A stretch of 64,000 bases of DNA from Salarchaeum sp. JOR-1 (GTDB lineage: Archaea; Halobacteriota; Halobacteria; Halobacteriales; Halobacteriaceae). Location: positions 1,364,001 to 1,428,000 of the forward strand of contig NZ_CP042241.1 of the NCBI RefSeq assembly GCF_007833275.1. The letters are read 5' to 3'. Below, one piece after another: positions 35,446 through 49,763 of the stretch. The notes under the pieces are model-generated. The model saw only the letters and a list, made by a program, of their open reading frames with translations, was not told the origin of the DNA and did not search any database. The stretch's first letter is position 1; every line of letters starts with the position of its first letter. The position numbers and the translations under genes were made by a program.

Positions 35446-36468
35446 ATGACTCCCGAGGACGTACGCGACATCCTCCGCACCGTCGAGGACCCCGACCTCG
35501 GCGGCGACATCGTCTCGCTCAACCTCGTCAACGACCTCCAAGTTGACGGCGACACAGTCAGCGTCTCCCTCGCCCTCGGCGCTCCCTACGCCCCCAACGA
35601 AACCGCCATCGCGAACCGCGTCCGCGAGGCGCTCCGCGACGAAGACCTCACCCCCGACATCTCCGCTCACACCGACACCGACAGCTCCGTCCTCCCCGGC
35701 GTGAAGAACGTCATCGCAGTCGCCTCCGGGAAGGGCGGCGTCGGCAAGAGCACCGTCTCCGTCAACGTCGCCGCCGGCCTCGCCGACCGCGGCGCGCGCG
35801 TCGGCCTGTTCGACGCCGACATCTACGGCCCGAACGTCCCCCGAATGGTCGACGCCGACGACCACCCGAAAGCAACCCAGGACGACACCATCGTCCCCCC
35901 CGAGAAGTACGGAATGAAACTCATGAGCATGGCGTTCATGGTCGGCGACGACGACCCCGTCATCTGGCGCGGCCCGATGGTTCACAAGGTCATCACCCAG
36001 CTCGTCGAAGACGTCGAGTGGGGCGCTCTCGACTACCTCGTCGTCGACCTCCCACCAGGCACCGGCGACACCCAACTCACGATGCTTCAAACCGTCCCGC
36101 TCACCGGGGCTGTCGTCGTCACCACCCCCCAAGACGTCGCCGTCGACGACGCCCGCAAGGGCCTCCGGATGTTCGGTAGGCACGACACTCCCGTCCTCGG
36201 CATCGCCGAGAACATGAGCACGTTCACGTGCCCCGACTGCGGCAGCCAACACACCATCTTCGGCAGCGGCGGCGGCGAGGAGTTCGCCGACGAGAACGAC
36301 CTCCCGTTCCTCGGCTCTCTCCCCCTCGACCCTCGCGTACGTGAGGGCGGCGACGGCGGCCGCCCCATCGTCCTCGACCAGGACAGCGAGACCGGCGACG
36401 CCTTCCGCGACCTCGCCGGTAACGTCGCCAACATGACCGGGATCCTCAACCGCCGCAGCCTCCAGTAA
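35446..36468 (+). CDS. mrp: Mrp/NBP35-family iron-sulfur cluster carrier ATPase (ApbC)
   Basis: 340 residues. Residues 1-80 are a MIP18/DUF59-type domain (VRDILRTVEDPDLGGDIVSL). Then comes the deviant Walker A GKGGVGKS (95-102), the FDADIYGPNVPRM switch, and near residue 260 the CPDC that holds the bridging 4Fe-4S cluster in the dimer. It delivers Fe-S clusters to target proteins in the cytoplasm. MoaA, divergently encoded, is an Fe-S enzyme. A 68-residue gene begins two bases after its stop. Confidence 0.93.
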   Translation: MTPEDVRDILRTVEDPDLGGDIVSLNLVNDLQVDGDTVSVSLALGAPYAPNETAIANRVREALRDEDLTPDISAHTDTDSSVLPGVKNVIAVASGKGGVGKSTVSVNVAAGLADRGARVGLFDADIYGPNVPRMVDADDHPKATQDDTIVPPEKYGMKLMSMAFMVGDDDPVIWRGPMVHKVITQLVEDVEWGALDYLVVDLPPGTGDTQLTMLQTVPLTGAVVVTTPQDVAVDDARKGLRMFGRHDTPVLGIAENMSTFTCPDCGSQHTIFGSGGGEEFADENDLPFLGSLPLDPRVREGGDGGRPIVLDQDSETGDAFRDLAGNVANMTGILNRRSLQ

Positions 36469-36470
36469 CA

Positions 36471-36677
36471 ATGCCCAGTGACCACGAGAAACGCGACGTC
36501 CTCCGCGAGGTCGCGAGCGACCTCCGCGACGAGAGCGACGAAGGAGAGAAAATCGCCGCCATTCTCCAGCGCGTCAGCGACCTCTACGACGAAACAGAGG
36601 ACACCAGCCCACAGAAAATCTACCTCAACATGCGGAACATTCTCCAGGTCAGCGAACAGGGCGGCCTCGACCGCTAA
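36471..36677 (+). CDS. Short acidic protein co-transcribed with mrp
   Basis: 68 residues. It is charged and helical, with KRDVLREVASDLRDE and AILQRVSDLYDE as likely helices and IYLNMRNILQ near the end. I recognise it only as a haloarchaeal small protein that follows mrp. The two-base gap suggests translational coupling and perhaps an accessory role for the Fe-S carrier. Its last four bases overlap the 3' end of the convergent surface-protein gene. Confidence 0.65.
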   Translation: MPSDHEKRDVLREVASDLRDESDEGEKIAAILQRVSDLYDETEDTSPQKIYLNMRNILQVSEQGGLDR

Positions 36678-37558
36678 CCCCGCCACCACCACACAGCACC
36701 GAGGACCACCAGTCCCAGCACGCCCGCCCCAATCAGCGGCACGCCGTCCGGAACGCCATCACTTCCCGCATCGTCGTACGAATACCCACCGTTCGGGCCG
36801 TCGAGACTGAACGGCTCGTACGACTCCCGCGAGTACTCGGTTCCAGACTCAGCGGATCCACTGAACTCCACCTGCGCCAACGCACCCTCCGTCTCGTTCG
36901 GCTTCCCCATGAATAACCGGATTTCACCCTGAACATCCGTCCCCACCGGCTCCAACAACTCCAACTTTACAGTCTCAGATGTTCCCGGCAGGGGGTTTGC
37001 TACGTTCGTACTAGCACTCGTTTCCTTCGTATGAGCCACGACGTACGACGCGTACACGTTCTTACTCGGGTTCTCGACGGTCACGTAGACGACCGTCGAT
37101 TCGTTTCCGCGTGCGGTTCCGGTATCGACTTCGATGTCGGTGATTTTCGGGACTGGTACGTCTGCTGGATTCAGAGTTGAATACGTTCCGTTGAATTCGA
37201 ACTCAGCGCGTCCGCCGGCGGTTACGAGCAGTATTGAGTGGACGTCTTGTTCTACGCGTATTCTGTCCGTTATGTTGTACGTTTGGTGCCGGGATTCGCC
37301 CGGTTTGAGTGTGAACGTGCTTCGGCTGTACTCCCAGCCATCGACGTTGAACGAGTACGTCGTGTTCAGTGTTTGTCCCGTCGGGTTCTTGATGCTGACC
37401 TGCAGTAGTCTGGTGTTTTCGTTGAACGAGACAGCGTACTCGGCACCCATCATTGAGTCGAACTGTTCCGTATCGACCTGTGTGGGGCCCGGTGTGGGTT
37501 GCATACCTGTCGTAATTACCGCGACTATGACGAGTCCAAGCAAGTATTTTTTAAACAT
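36674..37558 (-). CDS. Secreted beta-domain protein with C-terminal membrane anchor
   Basis: 294 residues. A short N-terminal signal-like helix (FKKYLLGLVIVAVITTG) and a C-terminal hydrophobic segment (about 270-290) ending in WWWRG frame an extracellular region. The latter has two beta-sandwich-like parts, around residues 40-125 and 130-230, the second with VVYVTVENPSKNVYASYVV, reminiscent of CARDB-type adhesion domains. No PGF archaeosortase signature is visible, so the last helix probably stays in the membrane. The gene is richer in A+T than the genome and lies 32 bases downstream of the large PKD gene on the same strand, probably as an operon. Function unknown. Confidence 0.7.
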   Translation of the reverse strand: MFKKYLLGLVIVAVITTGMQPTPGPTQVDTEQFDSMMGAEYAVSFNENTRLLQVSIKNPTGQTLNTTYSFNVDGWEYSRSTFTLKPGESRHQTYNITDRIRVEQDVHSILLVTAGGRAEFEFNGTYSTLNPADVPVPKITDIEVDTGTARGNESTVVYVTVENPSKNVYASYVVAHTKETSASTNVANPLPGTSETVKLELLEPVGTDVQGEIRLFMGKPNETEGALAQVEFSGSAESGTEYSRESYEPFSLDGPNGGYSYDDAGSDGVPDGVPLIGAGVLGLVVLGAVWWWRG

Positions 37559-37590
37559 ATATTTAAAATTCTGTATTACAATTGAGTATT

Positions 37591-40500
37591 TTATTCTACT
37601 GGTTCGTATCCACTGACCGTTTTCGTCGTGGTGTTGACGATTGTCTCGGGGGTGAACGTGCGTAGTTCCTCGTTCACGTACGGGATGACGATCTCTTGAC
37701 GGACAGTGAGCTTCGTCTTGCTGACTGCCGATTTACTGGCTGGCTCGTCCACCCACTCGGTCTGTGTGCCGGTTTGTTTCCGTAACGTCCACTCGAACGT
37801 CGGTTCTGAGTCGCTGATTCGACGAGTCGGATCGGTAGCAAGCGCTGCGGCATCGAGCACGCTTCTCGTCGTATCCGTGGTGACCCACTTGTAGGTCGCT
37901 GGGGCGGTCTGCACTTGCCGGGTCGCGGTGTACGTCGTCACACGTTCGGTGTACGTTCGTTCGTAGCTGTATCGGTATTCTGTGCCGTATCGGGCGTTTT
38001 GAACCTTCACTCGTGAGGTTCGCCCGGTGAACTCGTGGTCCCAGCTCCGCTTGGACAGGCCCCAGTACGTCTCGGACTCAGTCGTCCAGTACGTGTAGGA
38101 GACGGTCGTCTGGTACGATTCATAGACGGTCTTCCACCGTGTCTCGGTGACGGTCGCCCAGTAGCACCCGAAGAAGTCGTTACACCGCCGGACCTGTTCC
38201 GTGACCTCGTACGGGACTCGACCCATCCGATACCGCGTCACGGTCTTCGTTCCGGTTCGTTCAACGCGACGGTCGTACCGGTACTGTCGGTACGTCTGGT
38301 AATCCGCGTCGTCGATGAGTACACGGCGTGTCTCCCCCGTAAACCGTCCCTTCCCCGAGCGCGAATCCCGCCACTCGGACTCGGTCACCGACCGCTCCTC
38401 GAGCGTCATCGACGACGGCCCCTCGCGCCACGCCTCGTTCACCGACAGAAACGCCTCCAAATATCCCTGCTGACTGAACGTCTTGTACCTCGTCTCGTAC
38501 TGGGCAGACCGAACGAGCCGACGCTCCTCCACAGTATACAGCGTTCCAACTCGCTCCTTCCGCGTGATAGCGTACCCCGACCCGAGCAGTTCGTTCTTCT
38601 TCTGCTCACTCCGAACCACCTGGGTGGTGTAGGTGGGCGATTCTACCAAGTACTCCGCGTCAACGACTGTATCGTCTGCCACTATCGGTTTACCGTGCGG
38701 AATTTTGGAGATACTCGGCAGAGGCTTTCGCACTACGTTCCAACTCCCTCCGTTCTTGTTGAACAATTCGACCACTGGTTGGCCATTTTCGAACGCTTCA
38801 ACTGGAACCGAAACCGTTCCGCTGAACTGGACGCCAGTTCCTCTTCGCGGCCCATCGTAGACTAGTCCGTATTCCTTCTTCCAAGAAAGGACGTGACCGC
38901 TACCCGGTACACGAACCCCAATATCCAAATTCAACTCGTAGGTATTCTTCGGCAACATCGCCGCAATCGAAGAAACACGGAACAGAACTGAGTCGTTCAA
39001 CCGATACGGGCCGACGGAAACCTCAGTAATAGTCTCTATCTCGGGAACATACCCATCCAAGAAACTGTAGGTCTGCTCCGACTTACCCTTATTATTGTCG
39101 TGAACGACCAGCGTGGAGCGGTAATGAGACTCTGTCTTCGCCACTTTCGGAGAGACATCAAGAGCTGTCGCGCCACCCTTCCAGTAAAATGTTAGATTTG
39201 TATCGTCTGGATCGAACGTTTTGCTGGCGTTAATCACTATTCCACGCTGATCGAAGTTTCCGGTGACGCCTTCGCTGTCGATAGTGTATCGGATTACGGG
39301 GTCGCTGGGGTGTGCTTTGAACGATTGTTGGGTAGATTTCGAGACGAGTGTTCCGCGCCAGTTGACCGCGTGGGAGACTTGTCCGACTTTGGGGATATCA
39401 GCTGCCCAGTACGTGTGAACAGTGAGGATGTCTGTTTGCCGGTTATAGGCTCGGTTGCGTTCGTGTACGTGTGTCGGAAGCTCGAGGACGTCGGTGACGG
39501 TCGGAGTACTGACGAGAGTTACGTCCGCGGGTGTCGCTCCGTTGAGGGCGATTCTGGTGATGTGGTGAGCGGTGTAGCTTTCGGGTGGAAGTCGGTGGTC
39601 GTAGGCGGTTCTGTTGTCTTCGCGTTCGGTGAATCTGGCAGAGATGATTTCAGGTGGGCGGGGTGCGGAGACGGTTTTGGTCTCGGTGGTGGTTTGATTT
39701 CTGGTGTCGGTTGCGGTGATGGTGACGGTGTGGTTGCCGGGTTCGATGGCCGCTCGGCGGTAGGTAGTGCGGAGGGTGGTGTGCCTGTGTTTGATGTGGT
39801 CGAGGTCGGTTCGAGCGCGGTGGTAGACTGATCTGCCGTCGATGCTGATGGTGAGCGTGTCGAGGTTGTCGAGCGCGTCGGTGGCGCTCGCGGAAATAGT
39901 GATTCCGGGGCCAGTCTGGATGTCGTTGATCGCGACTGTGGGGGCAGGGTCGGCGATGACGGTGGTGGTGTTGTCGGGGAATCGAATGGTCGTGGTGTCG
40001 ACGGTGGCGGCGATGTCGTGGATGCCGGGTTGGAGCGTGAGTGTCGCGGTTCGGCCGAAGTGTCGTCGCTGGCCGTCGACGTGTATCGTCGTGGGTGTGT
40101 TGTTGGGAGCGTCGGTTACGCGGTAGGTTCCGCTGAGGGGTTCGGCGCCGGTGAGCACTCGTGGGCCGCGGAGGCGGGGGTCAGCATCTGCTGTCTGTCC
40201 GATGAGTGGCGGCGGTGCGTGTGCCGTCGGGTCGGTGCTTTGGTTCGTCGTGTTACTACCGGTGAGCGCGCTCGTGCGTGTGTGGGCGGTCGCGTGGCGG
40301 TCGTCGGTGTCGGTGACGCGAACGCGGACGGTGTGGTCGCCGGGCCCGTCGAAGTAATGGGTGAGCGTGTCGGTTCGTCGAGTCTCGTCGAGCGTCGTCG
40401 TTCGGAGGCGGGTGCCGTCGACGTACCACGAGATGCTGGTGAGCGCGGCGATTCCCGGGGTGGCGGCGGCGCGGTAGGTCGCGGCGTGGTCGGTTCGGAC

Positions 40501-40869
40501 GGCGTCAGGGCCGTCGACCGTGACCGTCGGTGGGTCGCCGGGTTCGACGGTGACGTAGAGGGTGTCGGTCGCGCTGGCGCCGTCGGTGTCGGTGACGCGG
40601 ACGGTGACGGCGTAGGTACCGGTCGACCGCGGCGTGAACGCGGTGGTGGGGCAGGTCGCGCAGTCCGGGATGCCTGTCGTACCGTTCGGGCGGTGTATCG
40701 TCCACTCCGTTTCGGCGAGTTCGCCGTCGGGGTCGTAGGAGCCTGTGGAGTCGAGGTAAACCGGAGCGCCGCGCGTGGCGGTCTGGTCGAGGCCGGCTTC
40801 CGCGAGTGGCCGTTCGTTCCCGCTGGCGGCGACGGTCGCCGGGAGGAGAGTGAGGAGGAGGACAACCAC
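37591..40869 (-). CDS. Large secreted PKD-repeat protein with C-terminal Tyr/Arg/Thr-rich repeats
   Basis: 1092 residues. A hydrophobic signal-like start (VLLLTLLPATVAASG) is followed by PKD-like domains at about 20-110 (LDSTGSYDPDGELAETEW, VTVRVTDTDGAS) and 110-205, and further beta domains to about 640. From about 770 to 1000 come Tyr/Arg/Thr-rich repeats, with three copies of a 26-residue element near residues 776, 841 and 945. Cys near 894 and 900 (RCNDFFGCYW) could form a disulfide. There is no C-terminal anchor, so it is probably surface-attached through partners. The GTG start at 40869 leaves the signal without its positive N-region. Base composition falls to about half G+C in the middle. 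Function unknown; adhesion is likely for PKD proteins. Confidence 0.7.
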   Translation of the reverse strand: MVVLLLTLLPATVAASGNERPLAEAGLDQTATRGAPVYLDSTGSYDPDGELAETEWTIHRPNGTTGIPDCATCPTTAFTPRSTGTYAVTVRVTDTDGASATDTLYVTVEPGDPPTVTVDGPDAVRTDHAATYRAAATPGIAALTSISWYVDGTRLRTTTLDETRRTDTLTHYFDGPGDHTVRVRVTDTDDRHATAHTRTSALTGSNTTNQSTDPTAHAPPPLIGQTADADPRLRGPRVLTGAEPLSGTYRVTDAPNNTPTTIHVDGQRRHFGRTATLTLQPGIHDIAATVDTTTIRFPDNTTTVIADPAPTVAINDIQTGPGITISASATDALDNLDTLTISIDGRSVYHRARTDLDHIKHRHTTLRTTYRRAAIEPGNHTVTITATDTRNQTTTETKTVSAPRPPEIISARFTEREDNRTAYDHRLPPESYTAHHITRIALNGATPADVTLVSTPTVTDVLELPTHVHERNRAYNRQTDILTVHTYWAADIPKVGQVSHAVNWRGTLVSKSTQQSFKAHPSDPVIRYTIDSEGVTGNFDQRGIVINASKTFDPDDTNLTFYWKGGATALDVSPKVAKTESHYRSTLVVHDNNKGKSEQTYSFLDGYVPEIETITEVSVGPYRLNDSVLFRVSSIAAMLPKNTYELNLDIGVRVPGSGHVLSWKKEYGLVYDGPRRGTGVQFSGTVSVPVEAFENGQPVVELFNKNGGSWNVVRKPLPSISKIPHGKPIVADDTVVDAEYLVESPTYTTQVVRSEQKKNELLGSGYAITRKERVGTLYTVEERRLVRSAQYETRYKTFSQQGYLEAFLSVNEAWREGPSSMTLEERSVTESEWRDSRSGKGRFTGETRRVLIDDADYQTYRQYRYDRRVERTGTKTVTRYRMGRVPYEVTEQVRRCNDFFGCYWATVTETRWKTVYESYQTTVSYTYWTTESETYWGLSKRSWDHEFTGRTSRVKVQNARYGTEYRYSYERTYTERVTTYTATRQVQTAPATYKWVTTDTTRSVLDAAALATDPTRRISDSEPTFEWTLRKQTGTQTEWVDEPASKSAVSKTKLTVRQEIVIPYVNEELRTFTPETIVNTTTKTVSGYEPVE

Positions 40870-41093
40870 GATATATTTCCGAATTTCTAAACTGTTGTAT
40901 TTACGCTACCGTATTTGAACGTTCGCGTTTCGTGTCGCCGGGGCGCCCTCCCCGGGCCTCCTCGTTGGCGGGCGGGAGAGTGCCCAGGTAGCGGTTTTTC
41001 ACGAACTTTCCCTGCCAATGGATAGCAAACGATTTAGTGAGTCGCGCCAAATTTTGCGATAAGGCCCAGACTGCAGGGGGCCAGAGACCTACT

Positions 41094-42986
41094 ATGACTA
41101 ACGACGAACTCATCTGGCGAATCGCGGGCGGTTCCGGGGACGGAATCGACTCGACCAGCCAGAACTTCGCGAAGGCGCTGATGCGCTCAGGCCTCAACGT
41201 CTTCACGCACCGGCACTATCCGTCGCGCATCCGTGGCGGCCACACGTACGTCGAGATTCGCGCGTCGGACGAGAACGTCCGCTCCCGGGGAGACGGCTAC
41301 AACTTCCTCCTCTCGCTCGGCGACTCCTTCGCCCGGAACCCGAAGGAGGGCGCGTACTACGGCGAGGAGGAAATCAAGCCGCTCTCCGAGAACCTCGACG
41401 AGCTCCGCGAGGGCGGCGTCATCGTCTACGACTCCGGCCTCCTCGACACCGACGACATCGAGAACTTCGACGAGCGCGTCGAGGAGAACAACTGGCACGT
41501 CTACGACCTGGATCTCCGCGGCCTCGCGAAAGAACACGGCCGCGAGATCATGCGGAACACCGCCGGCGTCGGCGCGACCGCCGCAATCATCGGCTTCGAC
41601 CTCGACTACATCGAGGAACTGATGGCCGACGCGATGAGCGGCGACATCCTCGACGCAAACATCGACGTGCTCCGCGACGCCTACGAGAGCGTTCAGGAGG
41701 ACTACGACGTGGACGCCCACGACGTCTCCGTCCCCGATGGCAGCCACGAGGAAGAACAGGTGCTCGTCTCCGGGAGCCACGGCATCGCGTACGGCGCCCT
41801 CGACGAGGGCTGCCGATTCATCTCCGGCTACCCGATGACGCCGTGGACGGACGTCTTCACAATCCTCACCCAGCTCATGCCCGACGTGGGCGGTATCAGC
41901 GAGCAGGTGGAGGACGAAATCGCGGCGGCGGCGCTCGCGGTCGGCGCAAGCCACGCGGGCGTGAAGGCGATGTCCGGCTCCTCCGGCGGCGGGTTCGCGC
42001 TCATGTCGGAGCCGCTCGGCCTCGCCGAGATGACCGAAACACCGCTCGTTCTCGTCGAGTCCATGCGCGCGGGCCCCAGCACGGGGATGCCGACGAAGCC
42101 CGAGCAGGCCGACCTCGAGCACGTTCTCTACACGAGTCAGGGCGACAGCCACCGCGTGGTGTTCGCGCCATCGGATCCGATCGAGTGCTACGAGCAGACC
42201 CGGAAGGCGTTCCAGGTCGCGTGGGAGTACCAGATTCCGGTGATGGTCATCTACGACCAGAAGCTCTCCGGCGAGTACCGGAACGTCCCCGCGTCGTTCT
42301 TCGATCAGGAAGCGAACCCCAGCCTCGGATCGACGCTCACGGAAGACGAAATCGCAGAGGCCGCGCACGACGAATTCGGGAAGTTCGAGCGGTTCCGCCA
42401 CGACCCCGAGAACGGCGTGAGCCCGCGGTCGATTCCCGGACAGAAGGGCGGGCACTTCCTCGCGACTGGCAACGAACACACTCCGGAGGGGCACATCAGC
42501 GAAGACCCCGATAACCGCGTGAACCAGATGGATCGTCGGCTCCGCAAGATGCGAACCATCCGCGCGGACCTCGACGAGGACGAGCGCCAGGACACGTACG
42601 GCGACGCCGACGCGGACTTCGGCCTCGTCTCCTGGGGCAGCCAGACGGGGACGGTCGAGGAGGCCGTCGACCGCCTGAACGACTCGGGGTACTCGGTGAA
42701 GGCGCTCTCCGTCTCGGAGATGGCGCCGTTCCCGGAGCGGAAGGTGCGTGAGTTCCTCGACAGCGTCGACGAGGCGCTCGTCGTGGAGATGAGCACGACC
42801 GCGCAGTTCCGCGGCCACATCCAGAAGGAGACCGGGGACTACGGCGACCTGCTCTCCAGTCTGCTCAAGTACAACGGGAACCCGTTCGAACCCGCGGAGA
42901 TCGTGGAAGCGGCCGAGATCGAGATCGAGGATCGCCTCGACGAACCATCGAGTCAGACGCGACTCGAACCCGCGGCAGGTGACTAA
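41094..42986 (+). CDS. korA: 2-oxoacid:ferredoxin oxidoreductase, alpha (gamma-alpha fused) subunit KorA
   Basis: 630 residues. The N-terminal gamma domain begins with IAGGSGDGIDSTSQNFAKA and extends to about 190. The alpha domain follows with SGSHGIAYGALDEGCRFISG, YPMTPWTDVF and a long C-terminal part. Pyruvate and 2-oxoglutarate enzymes share this layout; the sequence resembles KorA most, judged from memory of haloarchaeal homologues. It oxidises the acid to its acyl-CoA and passes electrons to ferredoxin. The ATG at 41094 is chosen because homology starts there. KorB follows after two bases. Confidence 0.91.
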   Translation: MTNDELIWRIAGGSGDGIDSTSQNFAKALMRSGLNVFTHRHYPSRIRGGHTYVEIRASDENVRSRGDGYNFLLSLGDSFARNPKEGAYYGEEEIKPLSENLDELREGGVIVYDSGLLDTDDIENFDERVEENNWHVYDLDLRGLAKEHGREIMRNTAGVGATAAIIGFDLDYIEELMADAMSGDILDANIDVLRDAYESVQEDYDVDAHDVSVPDGSHEEEQVLVSGSHGIAYGALDEGCRFISGYPMTPWTDVFTILTQLMPDVGGISEQVEDEIAAAALAVGASHAGVKAMSGSSGGGFALMSEPLGLAEMTETPLVLVESMRAGPSTGMPTKPEQADLEHVLYTSQGDSHRVVFAPSDPIECYEQTRKAFQVAWEYQIPVMVIYDQKLSGEYRNVPASFFDQEANPSLGSTLTEDEIAEAAHDEFGKFERFRHDPENGVSPRSIPGQKGGHFLATGNEHTPEGHISEDPDNRVNQMDRRLRKMRTIRADLDEDERQDTYGDADADFGLVSWGSQTGTVEEAVDRLNDSGYSVKALSVSEMAPFPERKVREFLDSVDEALVVEMSTTAQFRGHIQKETGDYGDLLSSLLKYNGNPFEPAEIVEAAEIEIEDRLDEPSSQTRLEPAAGD

Positions 42987-47804: not shown

Positions 47805-49763
47805 ATGGACGTAGACGACATCGAAACGGTCGCGGTCATCGGTTCCGGGAACATGGGCCACGGCATCACCGAAGTCGTGGCGATGGCCGGATACGACGTC
47901 ACGATGCGTGACATCGAGGAGGACATCGTACAGGACGGCTACGAGTCCATCGAGTGGAGCCTCGACAAACTCGCCGAGAACGACCGACTCGACGAGCCCC
48001 CCGCGGCCATCCTCGACCGCATCAGCACCGAGGTCGACCTCGAAGCCGCCGTCGCGGGCGCGGACATCGTCATCGAAGCCGTCCCCGAGCAGATGGATCT
48101 CAAGAAGGACGTGTTCTCCGACCTCGACGACTACGCCGAGGACGGCGCGATTCTCGCCTCGAACACCTCCTCGCTCTCCATCACCGAAATCGCGTCCGCG
48201 ACCGACCGCCCCGAGGACGTGGTGGGGATGCACTTTTTCAACCCGCCCGTGAAGATGGATCTCGTCGAGGTCATCTACGGCGCGGAGACGGACGACGACA
48301 CCGCACAGGCGACCTACGACTTCGTCGAGGCCGTCGAGAAGACGCCGATCTTCGTGCGCAAGGACGTGAACGGCTTCGTCGTGAACAGCGTGCTCGGGCC
48401 GTTCGGCGAGGAGGCCGCGTGGATGGCGTCCGAGGACCTCGCGACGATCGAGGAGATCGACGCCGCCATGGTCTACGGGCGGGGCTACCCGATGGGGCCG
48501 TTCGAACTCGGCGACCTCACGGGCATCGACGTGGGCTACCACGTCCGCAAGGAGGCCGGCAAGGAGATTCCGCCCCTGATGGAGGCCAAGGTCGAGGCCG
48601 AGGAACTCGGCCGCAAGACCGGCGAGGGCTACTACCGGTACGACGACGGCGAGGGCGTCACGTACGAGCAGGGCCAGGGCGAGGACGTGGACACGCTCCG
48701 CATCGAGGCCCGCATGGTGAACGAGGCCGCGAAGCTCGTCGGGAACGACGTGGCGACCCCGGACGCCATCGACACCGGGATGAAACTCGGCGCGGGCTTC
48801 CCCGAGGGAATCTGCGTGCGCGGCGACAAACTCGGCCTCGATACGGTGCTCGCGAAGCTCGAAGACCTCCACGAGCAGTACGGCGCGGATCGCTACGAGC
48901 CCGCCGACTACCTCGTCGGACTCGTCGAGGACGGCAAAACCGGGAAAGAAGCGGGCGAGGGGTTCTACGAGTACAACACGGGCAGCGGGCCCGGCGACTA
49001 CAACACCATCACCTGGGACCTCACGGACGACGGGCTCCTCGAAGTGAAACTCGACCGGCCGGAGCGCATGAACGCGCTCAGCAACGACCTGATGGACGCC
49101 GTCGTCGACCTCCTCGAATCCGTCGACACCGAGGACGTGCGCGCGGTGTCCTTCGAGGGCGCGGGCGACCGCGCGTTCAGCGCCGGCGCAGATGTTACGG
49201 GATTCGCGGACATCGAACCCGCGAAGCGCGCGGAACCCACGGAAGTCTTCCGGGTCGTCGACGAGTTCCCGCGGCCGACCATCGCGAAGATCGACGGCTA
49301 CTGCCTCGGCGGCGGGTTCGAACTCGCGCTCGCCTGCGACCTCCGCGTCGCCACCGAGGACTCCCAGTTCGGCTTCCCCGAGATCACCCTCGGTCTCCTG
49401 CCGGGCGGCGGCGGCACGCAGCGCGCGCTCCGCATGATCGGTGAGGCGCGCGCGAAGGAACTCGTCTTCCGCGGCGAACACATCGACGCCGAGCGCGCGG
49501 AGAACTGGGGGCTGATCAACCGCGCCGTCCCCGAGGAGGAGTACGAGGACACCTGCGCGGACTTCCTCGACGACCTCGTCTCCGGGCCGCCGCTCGCGCT
49601 CCAGCACGCCAAACGCGTGATGAACGAGGGCGCGGACGAAGACCTCGACGCCGGCCTCCAGATGGAGAGCCAGGCGTTCGCGCTCCTCCTCACCACGCAG
49701 GACGCCCGCGAGGGCACGGCGGCGTTCCAGGAGGACCGCGAACCGGAGTTCACGGGCGAATGA
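47805..49763 (+). CDS. Fused 3-hydroxyacyl-CoA dehydrogenase/enoyl-CoA hydratase
   Basis: 652 residues from the ATG at 47805; an in-frame ATG at 47778 is possible, but TTTAAT (47774-47779) looks like the TATA box. Residues 1-380 form the dehydrogenase: GSGNMGHGI binds NAD, and NTSSLSITEIA and GMHFFNPP are catalytic-region marks. From about 395 comes the crotonase domain: DRPERMNALSNDLM, FSAGADVTGFADI and CLGGGFELALACDL, with the catalytic Glu in FGFPEITLG. It should carry out two beta-oxidation steps in one chain. The domain order is the reverse of bacterial FadB. A thioesterase gene overlaps its end. Confidence 0.92.
   Translation: MDVDDIETVAVIGSGNMGHGITEVVAMAGYDVTMRDIEEDIVQDGYESIEWSLDKLAENDRLDEPPAAILDRISTEVDLEAAVAGADIVIEAVPEQMDLKKDVFSDLDDYAEDGAILASNTSSLSITEIASATDRPEDVVGMHFFNPPVKMDLVEVIYGAETDDDTAQATYDFVEAVEKTPIFVRKDVNGFVVNSVLGPFGEEAAWMASEDLATIEEIDAAMVYGRGYPMGPFELGDLTGIDVGYHVRKEAGKEIPPLMEAKVEAEELGRKTGEGYYRYDDGEGVTYEQGQGEDVDTLRIEARMVNEAAKLVGNDVATPDAIDTGMKLGAGFPEGICVRGDKLGLDTVLAKLEDLHEQYGADRYEPADYLVGLVEDGKTGKEAGEGFYEYNTGSGPGDYNTITWDLTDDGLLEVKLDRPERMNALSNDLMDAVVDLLESVDTEDVRAVSFEGAGDRAFSAGADVTGFADIEPAKRAEPTEVFRVVDEFPRPTIAKIDGYCLGGGFELALACDLRVATEDSQFGFPEITLGLLPGGGGTQRALRMIGEARAKELVFRGEHIDAERAENWGLINRAVPEEEYEDTCADFLDDLVSGPPLALQHAKRVMNEGADEDLDAGLQMESQAFALLLTTQDAREGTAAFQEDREPEFTGE

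Follow-up and report, generated by a model that had tools for sequence, protein, structure and literature searches.

The window analysed here is a 64,000-nt stretch of Salarchaeum sp. JOR-1 (GCF_007833275.1, NZ_CP042241.1, positions 1,364,001-1,428,000, forward strand), and all coordinates below are those of the window. Between mrp and korA it carries two adjacent genes, hereafter the large and the small gene. The features of the locus are as follows.

35446..36468, plus strand: mrp (NUBPL-type Fe-S P-loop NTPase), conserved flank, from Pfam and synteny
36471..36677, plus strand: conserved 68-aa ORF 3' of mrp (cluster c14) without a Pfam match, overlapping the small gene's 3' end by its final 4 bases
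36674..37558, minus strand: small gene, ORF of 294 aa with 49 relatives; signal peptide, two Fn3/Ig-like domains, linker and C-terminal membrane helix; AF2 mean pLDDT 83
36680..36736, minus strand: C-terminal membrane helix of the small protein, residues 275-293, from alignment and AF2 model
36824..37147, minus strand: membrane-proximal beta-sandwich of the small protein, residues 138-245, from the AF2 model; conserved, 81% identity to the same-genus relative over residues 131-248
37190..37477, minus strand: membrane-distal beta-sandwich of the small protein, residues 28-123, from the AF2 model; fast-evolving, 39% identity to the same-genus relative over residues 28-130
37591..40869, minus strand: large gene, ORF of 1092 aa with 49 full-length relatives; PKD domain, Ig-like array and C-terminal beta domain, no anchor, from Pfam (PKD) and AF2 model
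37684..38667, minus strand: C-terminal Tyr/Thr/Arg-rich beta domain of the large protein, residues 735-1062
38059..38328, minus strand: long beta-hairpin, residues 848-937, arms of 48 and 32 residues to the tip, from matched arm lengths; AF2 strands 856-897 and 901-937
38164..38184, minus strand: hairpin tip, Cys896-NDFFG-Cys902, with C896 and C902 at least 90% conserved; putative disulphide
38680..40542, minus strand: Ig-like array of the large protein, residues 110-730, roughly six more beta-sandwiches by AF2 secondary structure
40546..40818, minus strand: PKD domain, residues 18-108, with a CxxC motif (C70, C73); PF18911 E=2.3e-11, block pLDDT about 84-93 over residues 21-120
41094..42986, plus strand: korA, 2-oxoacid:ferredoxin oxidoreductase alpha subunit, conserved flank, from Pfam and synteny

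The two ORFs are spaced by 32 bp and both are kept in 48 other genomes; on the same strand and in conserved order, they form an operon-like pair, in line with the likely operon proposed in the initial annotation. Its description of two secreted products, one of 1092 residues without an anchor and one of 294 residues with a C-terminal membrane helix, agrees with the signal peptides and the helix seen in sequence and model. A genome search returned no second copy of the pair in the genome itself. Counterparts of the 68-aa ORF directly 3' of mrp occur at 15 compared loci. The annotated GTG start of the large gene leaves a signal peptide without basic residues. It is doubtful because the nearest (same-genus) relative begins 5 codons upstream with ATG (MRKYLVVV), where Salarchaeum sp. 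JOR-1 has ATT (IRKYIVVV; 40869-40884, minus strand). Translation may begin at ATT, the start codon may have changed, or the sequence may contain an error.

The invariant columns in the alignment of the small protein lie nearly all in the membrane-proximal domain or just after it, and the linker is modelled with low confidence by AF2. Foldseek searches with this model returned transglutaminases and the biofilm scaffold protein RbmA with E-values of 1e-5 to 1e-3 and low TM-scores. Matches to the carbohydrate-binding family CBM6 in 4/27 small proteins (best E 0.0016) were too weak to be accepted. No PGF-CTERM (archaeosortase) family was found in the pair in an NCBIfam scan, and the small-protein C-termini consist of a membrane helix followed by Arg, without PGF.

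The PKD domain of the large protein scores 44.0 bits against PF18911 (cut-off 27), is matched in 26/26 relatives as well, and is 82% identical to that of the same-genus relative; PDB profile matches for the protein include the Clostridium collagenase ColH. The count of about six Ig-like domains in the array is a reading of the AF2 strand pattern, and the fastest-evolving parts of the array are residues 406-520 and 621-730 (52-55% identity to the same-genus relative). No Pfam match was obtained for residues 735-1062 in either the window protein or its relatives, and among 393 genomes of the phylum relatives of this segment occur only inside the class. The AF2 model of the whole protein (pLDDT 73, pTM 0.35, hairpin-arm blocks about 43-79) shows the C-terminal part as long strands, and Foldseek matches it with low TM-scores to generic multi-Ig proteins, the S-layer proteins SbsB and EA1 among them. 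C70, C73, C896 and C902 are its only cysteines. Many relatives (e.g. L004, L011, L020) have a second cysteine pair in the last ~25 residues of the large protein, which is absent from the window protein and the Halobacterium copies.

Relatives of each protein were sought in 391 genomes of the class Halobacteria. Full-length relatives of both were found in an identical set of 49/391 genomes (12.5%), and neither full-length protein was found alone. The genes are adjacent and on the same strand, with the small gene downstream, in 48/49; in the remaining genome a contig break splits the pair, with the large gene about 500 bp from a contig end and the small gene at base 125 of another contig. Outside these 49 genomes, four marginal small-protein matches were detected (E 1e-4 to 7e-4), and in many other genomes the match is confined to about 100-200 N-terminal residues and falls in different, mostly shorter proteins. 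The check proposed earlier, a search with both proteins for their co-occurrence across haloarchaea, thus recovers them together repeatedly and in constant order. As judged from this sample, the pair is apparently inseparable, that is, obligate.

The locus had been described as a lower-G+C surface-protein island between mrp and korA, and as looking horizontally acquired. The hand counts behind the first statement were reproduced exactly (32/60 G+C at 38641-38700, 31/60 at 39001-39060 and 45/60 at 48001-48060), although such counts are weak evidence alone, since 4.3% of all 60-base windows in the stretch contain 32 or fewer G+C. The stronger comparison is regional. The 4,196 bp of the pair have 59.2% G+C vs 67.7% in the rest of the window, and every 4,196-bp stretch clear of the pair has at least 64.1%, which makes the pair the window's lowest-G+C 4.2 kb. 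The description therefore stands for the region as a whole, but the drop spares the first ~220 codons of the large gene, which have 70-71% G+C (GC3 about 0.85) vs 51-57% for codons 420-730. Both G+C and third-position G+C step down near codon 420 of this gene (37591-40869). The same step appears in the mean of 25 aligned large genes, with successive values of 0.66, 0.67, 0.64, then 0.47, 0.51, 0.52, 0.57, 0.56 and 0.54. Overall GC3 is 0.73 in the large gene and 0.68 in the small gene, compared with 0.90 in korA and mrp. Base composition across the locus is not normal in relatives either: G+C was below that of the flanks in 25/25 large genes and 23/23 small genes measured (means of 57.6% for large, 53.7% for small and 65.8% for flanks). 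Because G+C lies below that of the flanks in every measured relative and the within-gene profile recurs, low G+C is an inherited property of these genes. It is best read as an old property, mostly of weaker third-position G+C, and gives no sign of recent import. These data caution that a surface gene of lower G+C need not have been recently transferred.

Gene order and tree comparisons bear on the same question. The pair sits between mrp and korA in the window and in at least four other genera, Halobacterium, Halorussus, Haladaptatus and Halomicrococcus. The mrp-pair-korA order was found in 12/27 named relatives, and several more keep one side only; full-length copies lie elsewhere at six loci (L068, L071, L076, L077, L080, L102). 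Distance matrices of the large protein correlate with those of korB, korA and mrp at Spearman values of 0.95, 0.89 and 0.77, respectively, and those of the small protein at 0.90, 0.84 and 0.70. The correlation between large and small proteins (0.81) is no higher than that of either with korA or korB, and therefore reflects shared history rather than binding. In same-family genomes without the pair in which both flanks were found together, the mrp-korA gap is 141-1219 bp with one exception, so these sites are empty or hold one small gene. The exception, G236 (L158 1957-3204), lacks the small gene and holds in this interval only a 415-aa PKD/Ig protein, the counterpart of the large protein's first 400 residues. 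No relatives of the pair were found in phages, nor any of the large protein in viral contigs, and plasmids gave a single PKD-domain match; on these grounds a viral or plasmid origin was rejected.

That the pair is a recently acquired low-G+C island, the earlier reading, is hardly credible on this evidence. Its lower G+C, weaker GC3 and patchy presence (49/391) would be expected of such an island, but synteny is kept, trees are congruent with the flanks, the composition and its within-gene profile recur in the 25 relatives measured, and sites in most non-carriers checked are empty or nearly so. Recent transfer was accordingly rejected, with position, trees and host range congruent and low G+C family-wide. 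The horizontal acquisition once proposed gives way to an old, vertically inherited pair, the reading to which the sequence comparisons point. Transfer or rearrangement may have occurred in some lineages, which is conceivable because no more than 12.5% of the genomes sampled carry the pair and not all full-length copies are at this site.

The hairpin within the C-terminal domain is the most conserved part of the large protein, 95% identical to the same-genus relative (dN 0.03, dS 0.53, dN/dS about 0.05). Residues 848-937 show a period-2 alternation, and the second arm a period of 8 as well. Arms were measured between alignment-based anchors, the first from Arg848 to Cys and the second from Cys to a Tyr-Trp pair. 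Four arm-length classes were observed (first/second: 48/32, 46/30, 34/18 and 32/16 residues), and the first arm exceeds the second by 16 residues in 38/40 sequences (one genome represented twice) and by 15 in two (L076, L080). Eight proteins fetched later as a test fit this register, allowing for a left anchor placed one residue later in that script, and a Haloarchaeobius-like clade has one residue fewer at the base of the first arm. The Cys tip is present in 47/55 distinct proteins, and these 47 keep the near-constant register across the four classes. By parsimony, a tree from which the hairpin core was left out requires eight or more changes of arm class; in about five of them both arms of a tipped form change length together, and the others are transitions to tipless forms. 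That the arm difference stays nearly constant through these changes is explained by strands paired antiparallel in a fixed register. The arm lengths thus show the register of two paired strands whose length alters in both together, and the cysteines at the tip probably form a disulphide. This is an unusual case in which sequence lengths alone indicate strand register, and it reveals repeated paired insertions and deletions in two separate segments of one protein. A tentative extension, which we regard as possible but doubtful, is that the C-terminal domain has an undescribed fold in which the disulphide-tipped hairpin acts as a molecular ruler. Arm length would be set stepwise and change on both strands together (short side 16, 18, 30 or 32 residues, with an 8-residue repeat; absent in a few), and would determine how far a surface stalk extends beyond its membrane anchor.

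To our knowledge, little has been described of the haloarchaeal surface apparatus beyond S-layer, pili and archaella. We judge it fairly probable that the two proteins form an obligate complex on the haloarchaeal cell surface, old and passed on vertically, in which the small protein would tether the large, stalk-like one. Both proteins would be exported through their signal peptides. The small protein, held in the membrane by its C-terminal helix, would display two Fn3/Ig-like domains, and the anchorless large protein would most likely be kept at the surface by it. Contact would probably be made by the modules that evolve most slowly, in the large protein the C-terminal hairpin domain and in the small protein the membrane-proximal domain; the contrast in rates suggests that these two form a constant core, with the other parts facing outward. 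Together with the PKD domain, the Ig-like array would then form an outward stalk whose exposed surfaces evolve fast. The least secure step is that the stalk would serve attachment or cell-surface assembly; adhesion is a plausible candidate role of the pair. Haloarchaea would thereby have a conserved two-gene surface module open to clear deletion tests.

The initial annotation knew of no characterised system with this pairing. We likewise found none in the open-licence literature searched, and an earlier description elsewhere is possible. The nearest architectural analogues are SlaA/SlaB and VARTIG, and on the features tested the pair belongs to neither. Sulfolobus SlaA is a soluble, beta-rich protein of 1424 aa, and SlaB (475 aa) has N-terminal beta-sandwich domains and a C-terminal membrane helix (PMC10903991). 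The likeness is one of a large, soluble, beta-rich, anchorless protein and a smaller one with beta-sandwiches and a C-terminal membrane helix. We know of no counterpart in SlaA/SlaB for the PKD domain or the Cys-tipped hairpin. A second, SlaA/SlaB-like lattice or S-layer accessory, in which the large protein polymerises as a sheet or patches on small-protein pillars, would share this division of labour (PMC10903991) and would accommodate SbsB and EA1 among the generic multi-Ig Foldseek matches. It is nevertheless unlikely, given the low TM-scores of those matches and the missing SlaB-type long coiled-coil trimeric pillar, residues 275-293 being the only long helix in the AF2 model of the small protein. 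Neither protein's profile matched an S-layer protein among PDB chains, the only source of the SlaB sequences compared. The haloarchaeal S-layer glycoprotein family TIGR04216 was absent from an NCBIfam scan of both proteins, and the genome search, which lists weak halobacterial S-layer family matches (best in an 848-aa frame, all below cut-off), places none within the pair.

In the VARTIG loci of Thermococcales, a large secreted Ig protein precedes smaller membrane proteins that also carry Ig domains. The C-terminal Ig region there is hypervariable and undergoes recombination, and the set of downstream genes is not constant; the authors saw no counterpart outside Thermococcales (PMC8416519). 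Gene arrangement and fast-evolving Ig regions are alike in the pair, whose large Ig protein likewise precedes a smaller membrane protein bearing Ig-like domains, and a recognition or conflict module with variable Ig surfaces that tell self from non-self or act against neighbours could be envisaged. We consider this quite improbable: in contrast to the hypervariable VARTIG C-terminal Ig region, the hairpin is the best conserved part of the large protein, the partner is constant in 49/49, and trees follow the flanks, as expected of vertical inheritance. Sulfolobus threads (Saci_0406), which assemble through donor strand complementation and do so without the class III signal peptidase (PMC9715654), are likewise secreted Ig-like archaeal surface proteins, but their subunits are small, single-head and donor-strand joined. 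The pair could by analogy supply subunit and anchor of a donor-strand fibre in which each large protein would lend strands to the sheets of its neighbour, and it is Sec-type secreted, beta-rich and Ig-like. Such a fibre is very unlikely: a multidomain protein of 1092 aa far exceeds a simple pilin, no free N-terminal donor strand was recognised, and arms of matched length speak for pairing between the two strands of the hairpin itself. We know of no membrane-anchored partner of the small-protein kind in thread filaments. The tethered two-part complex remains the reading we prefer.

The large protein joins the PKD family (PF18911/PF00801, e.g. ColH) through its N-terminal domain; there is no Pfam match for the remainder, above all for residues 735-1062. 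No PKD or immunoglobulin protein is mentioned in a paper on haloarchaeal protease-precursor antagonism. Haloarcula, Halorientalis, Halosimplex and others (L085-L135) have PKD proteins of about 300-490 aa that are about 40-50% identical to the large protein over the first ~200 residues, but only this N-terminal part matches and no small-protein relative was detected alongside. CAP-domain and other lipoproteins beside related PKD proteins were considered as distant relatives of the small protein and rejected by hhalign. In Haloarcula and relatives (L089-L115), the PKD proteins that share these first ~200 residues measure about 376-490 aa. A lipoprotein of about 215-370 aa (cluster c20) often comes next, which makes another arrangement of PKD protein and anchored partner. 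At L123, L124, L128, L129 and L130 (Halobaculum, Halolamina and one related MAG), the site next to korA is taken by a PKD protein, called at 579 aa in L130 and at 905-918 aa in the others. The longer ones have a Tyr/Trp-rich C-terminus, and the gene that follows encodes, in place of the small protein, a lipoprotein of a CAP (cysteine-rich secretory) family cluster.
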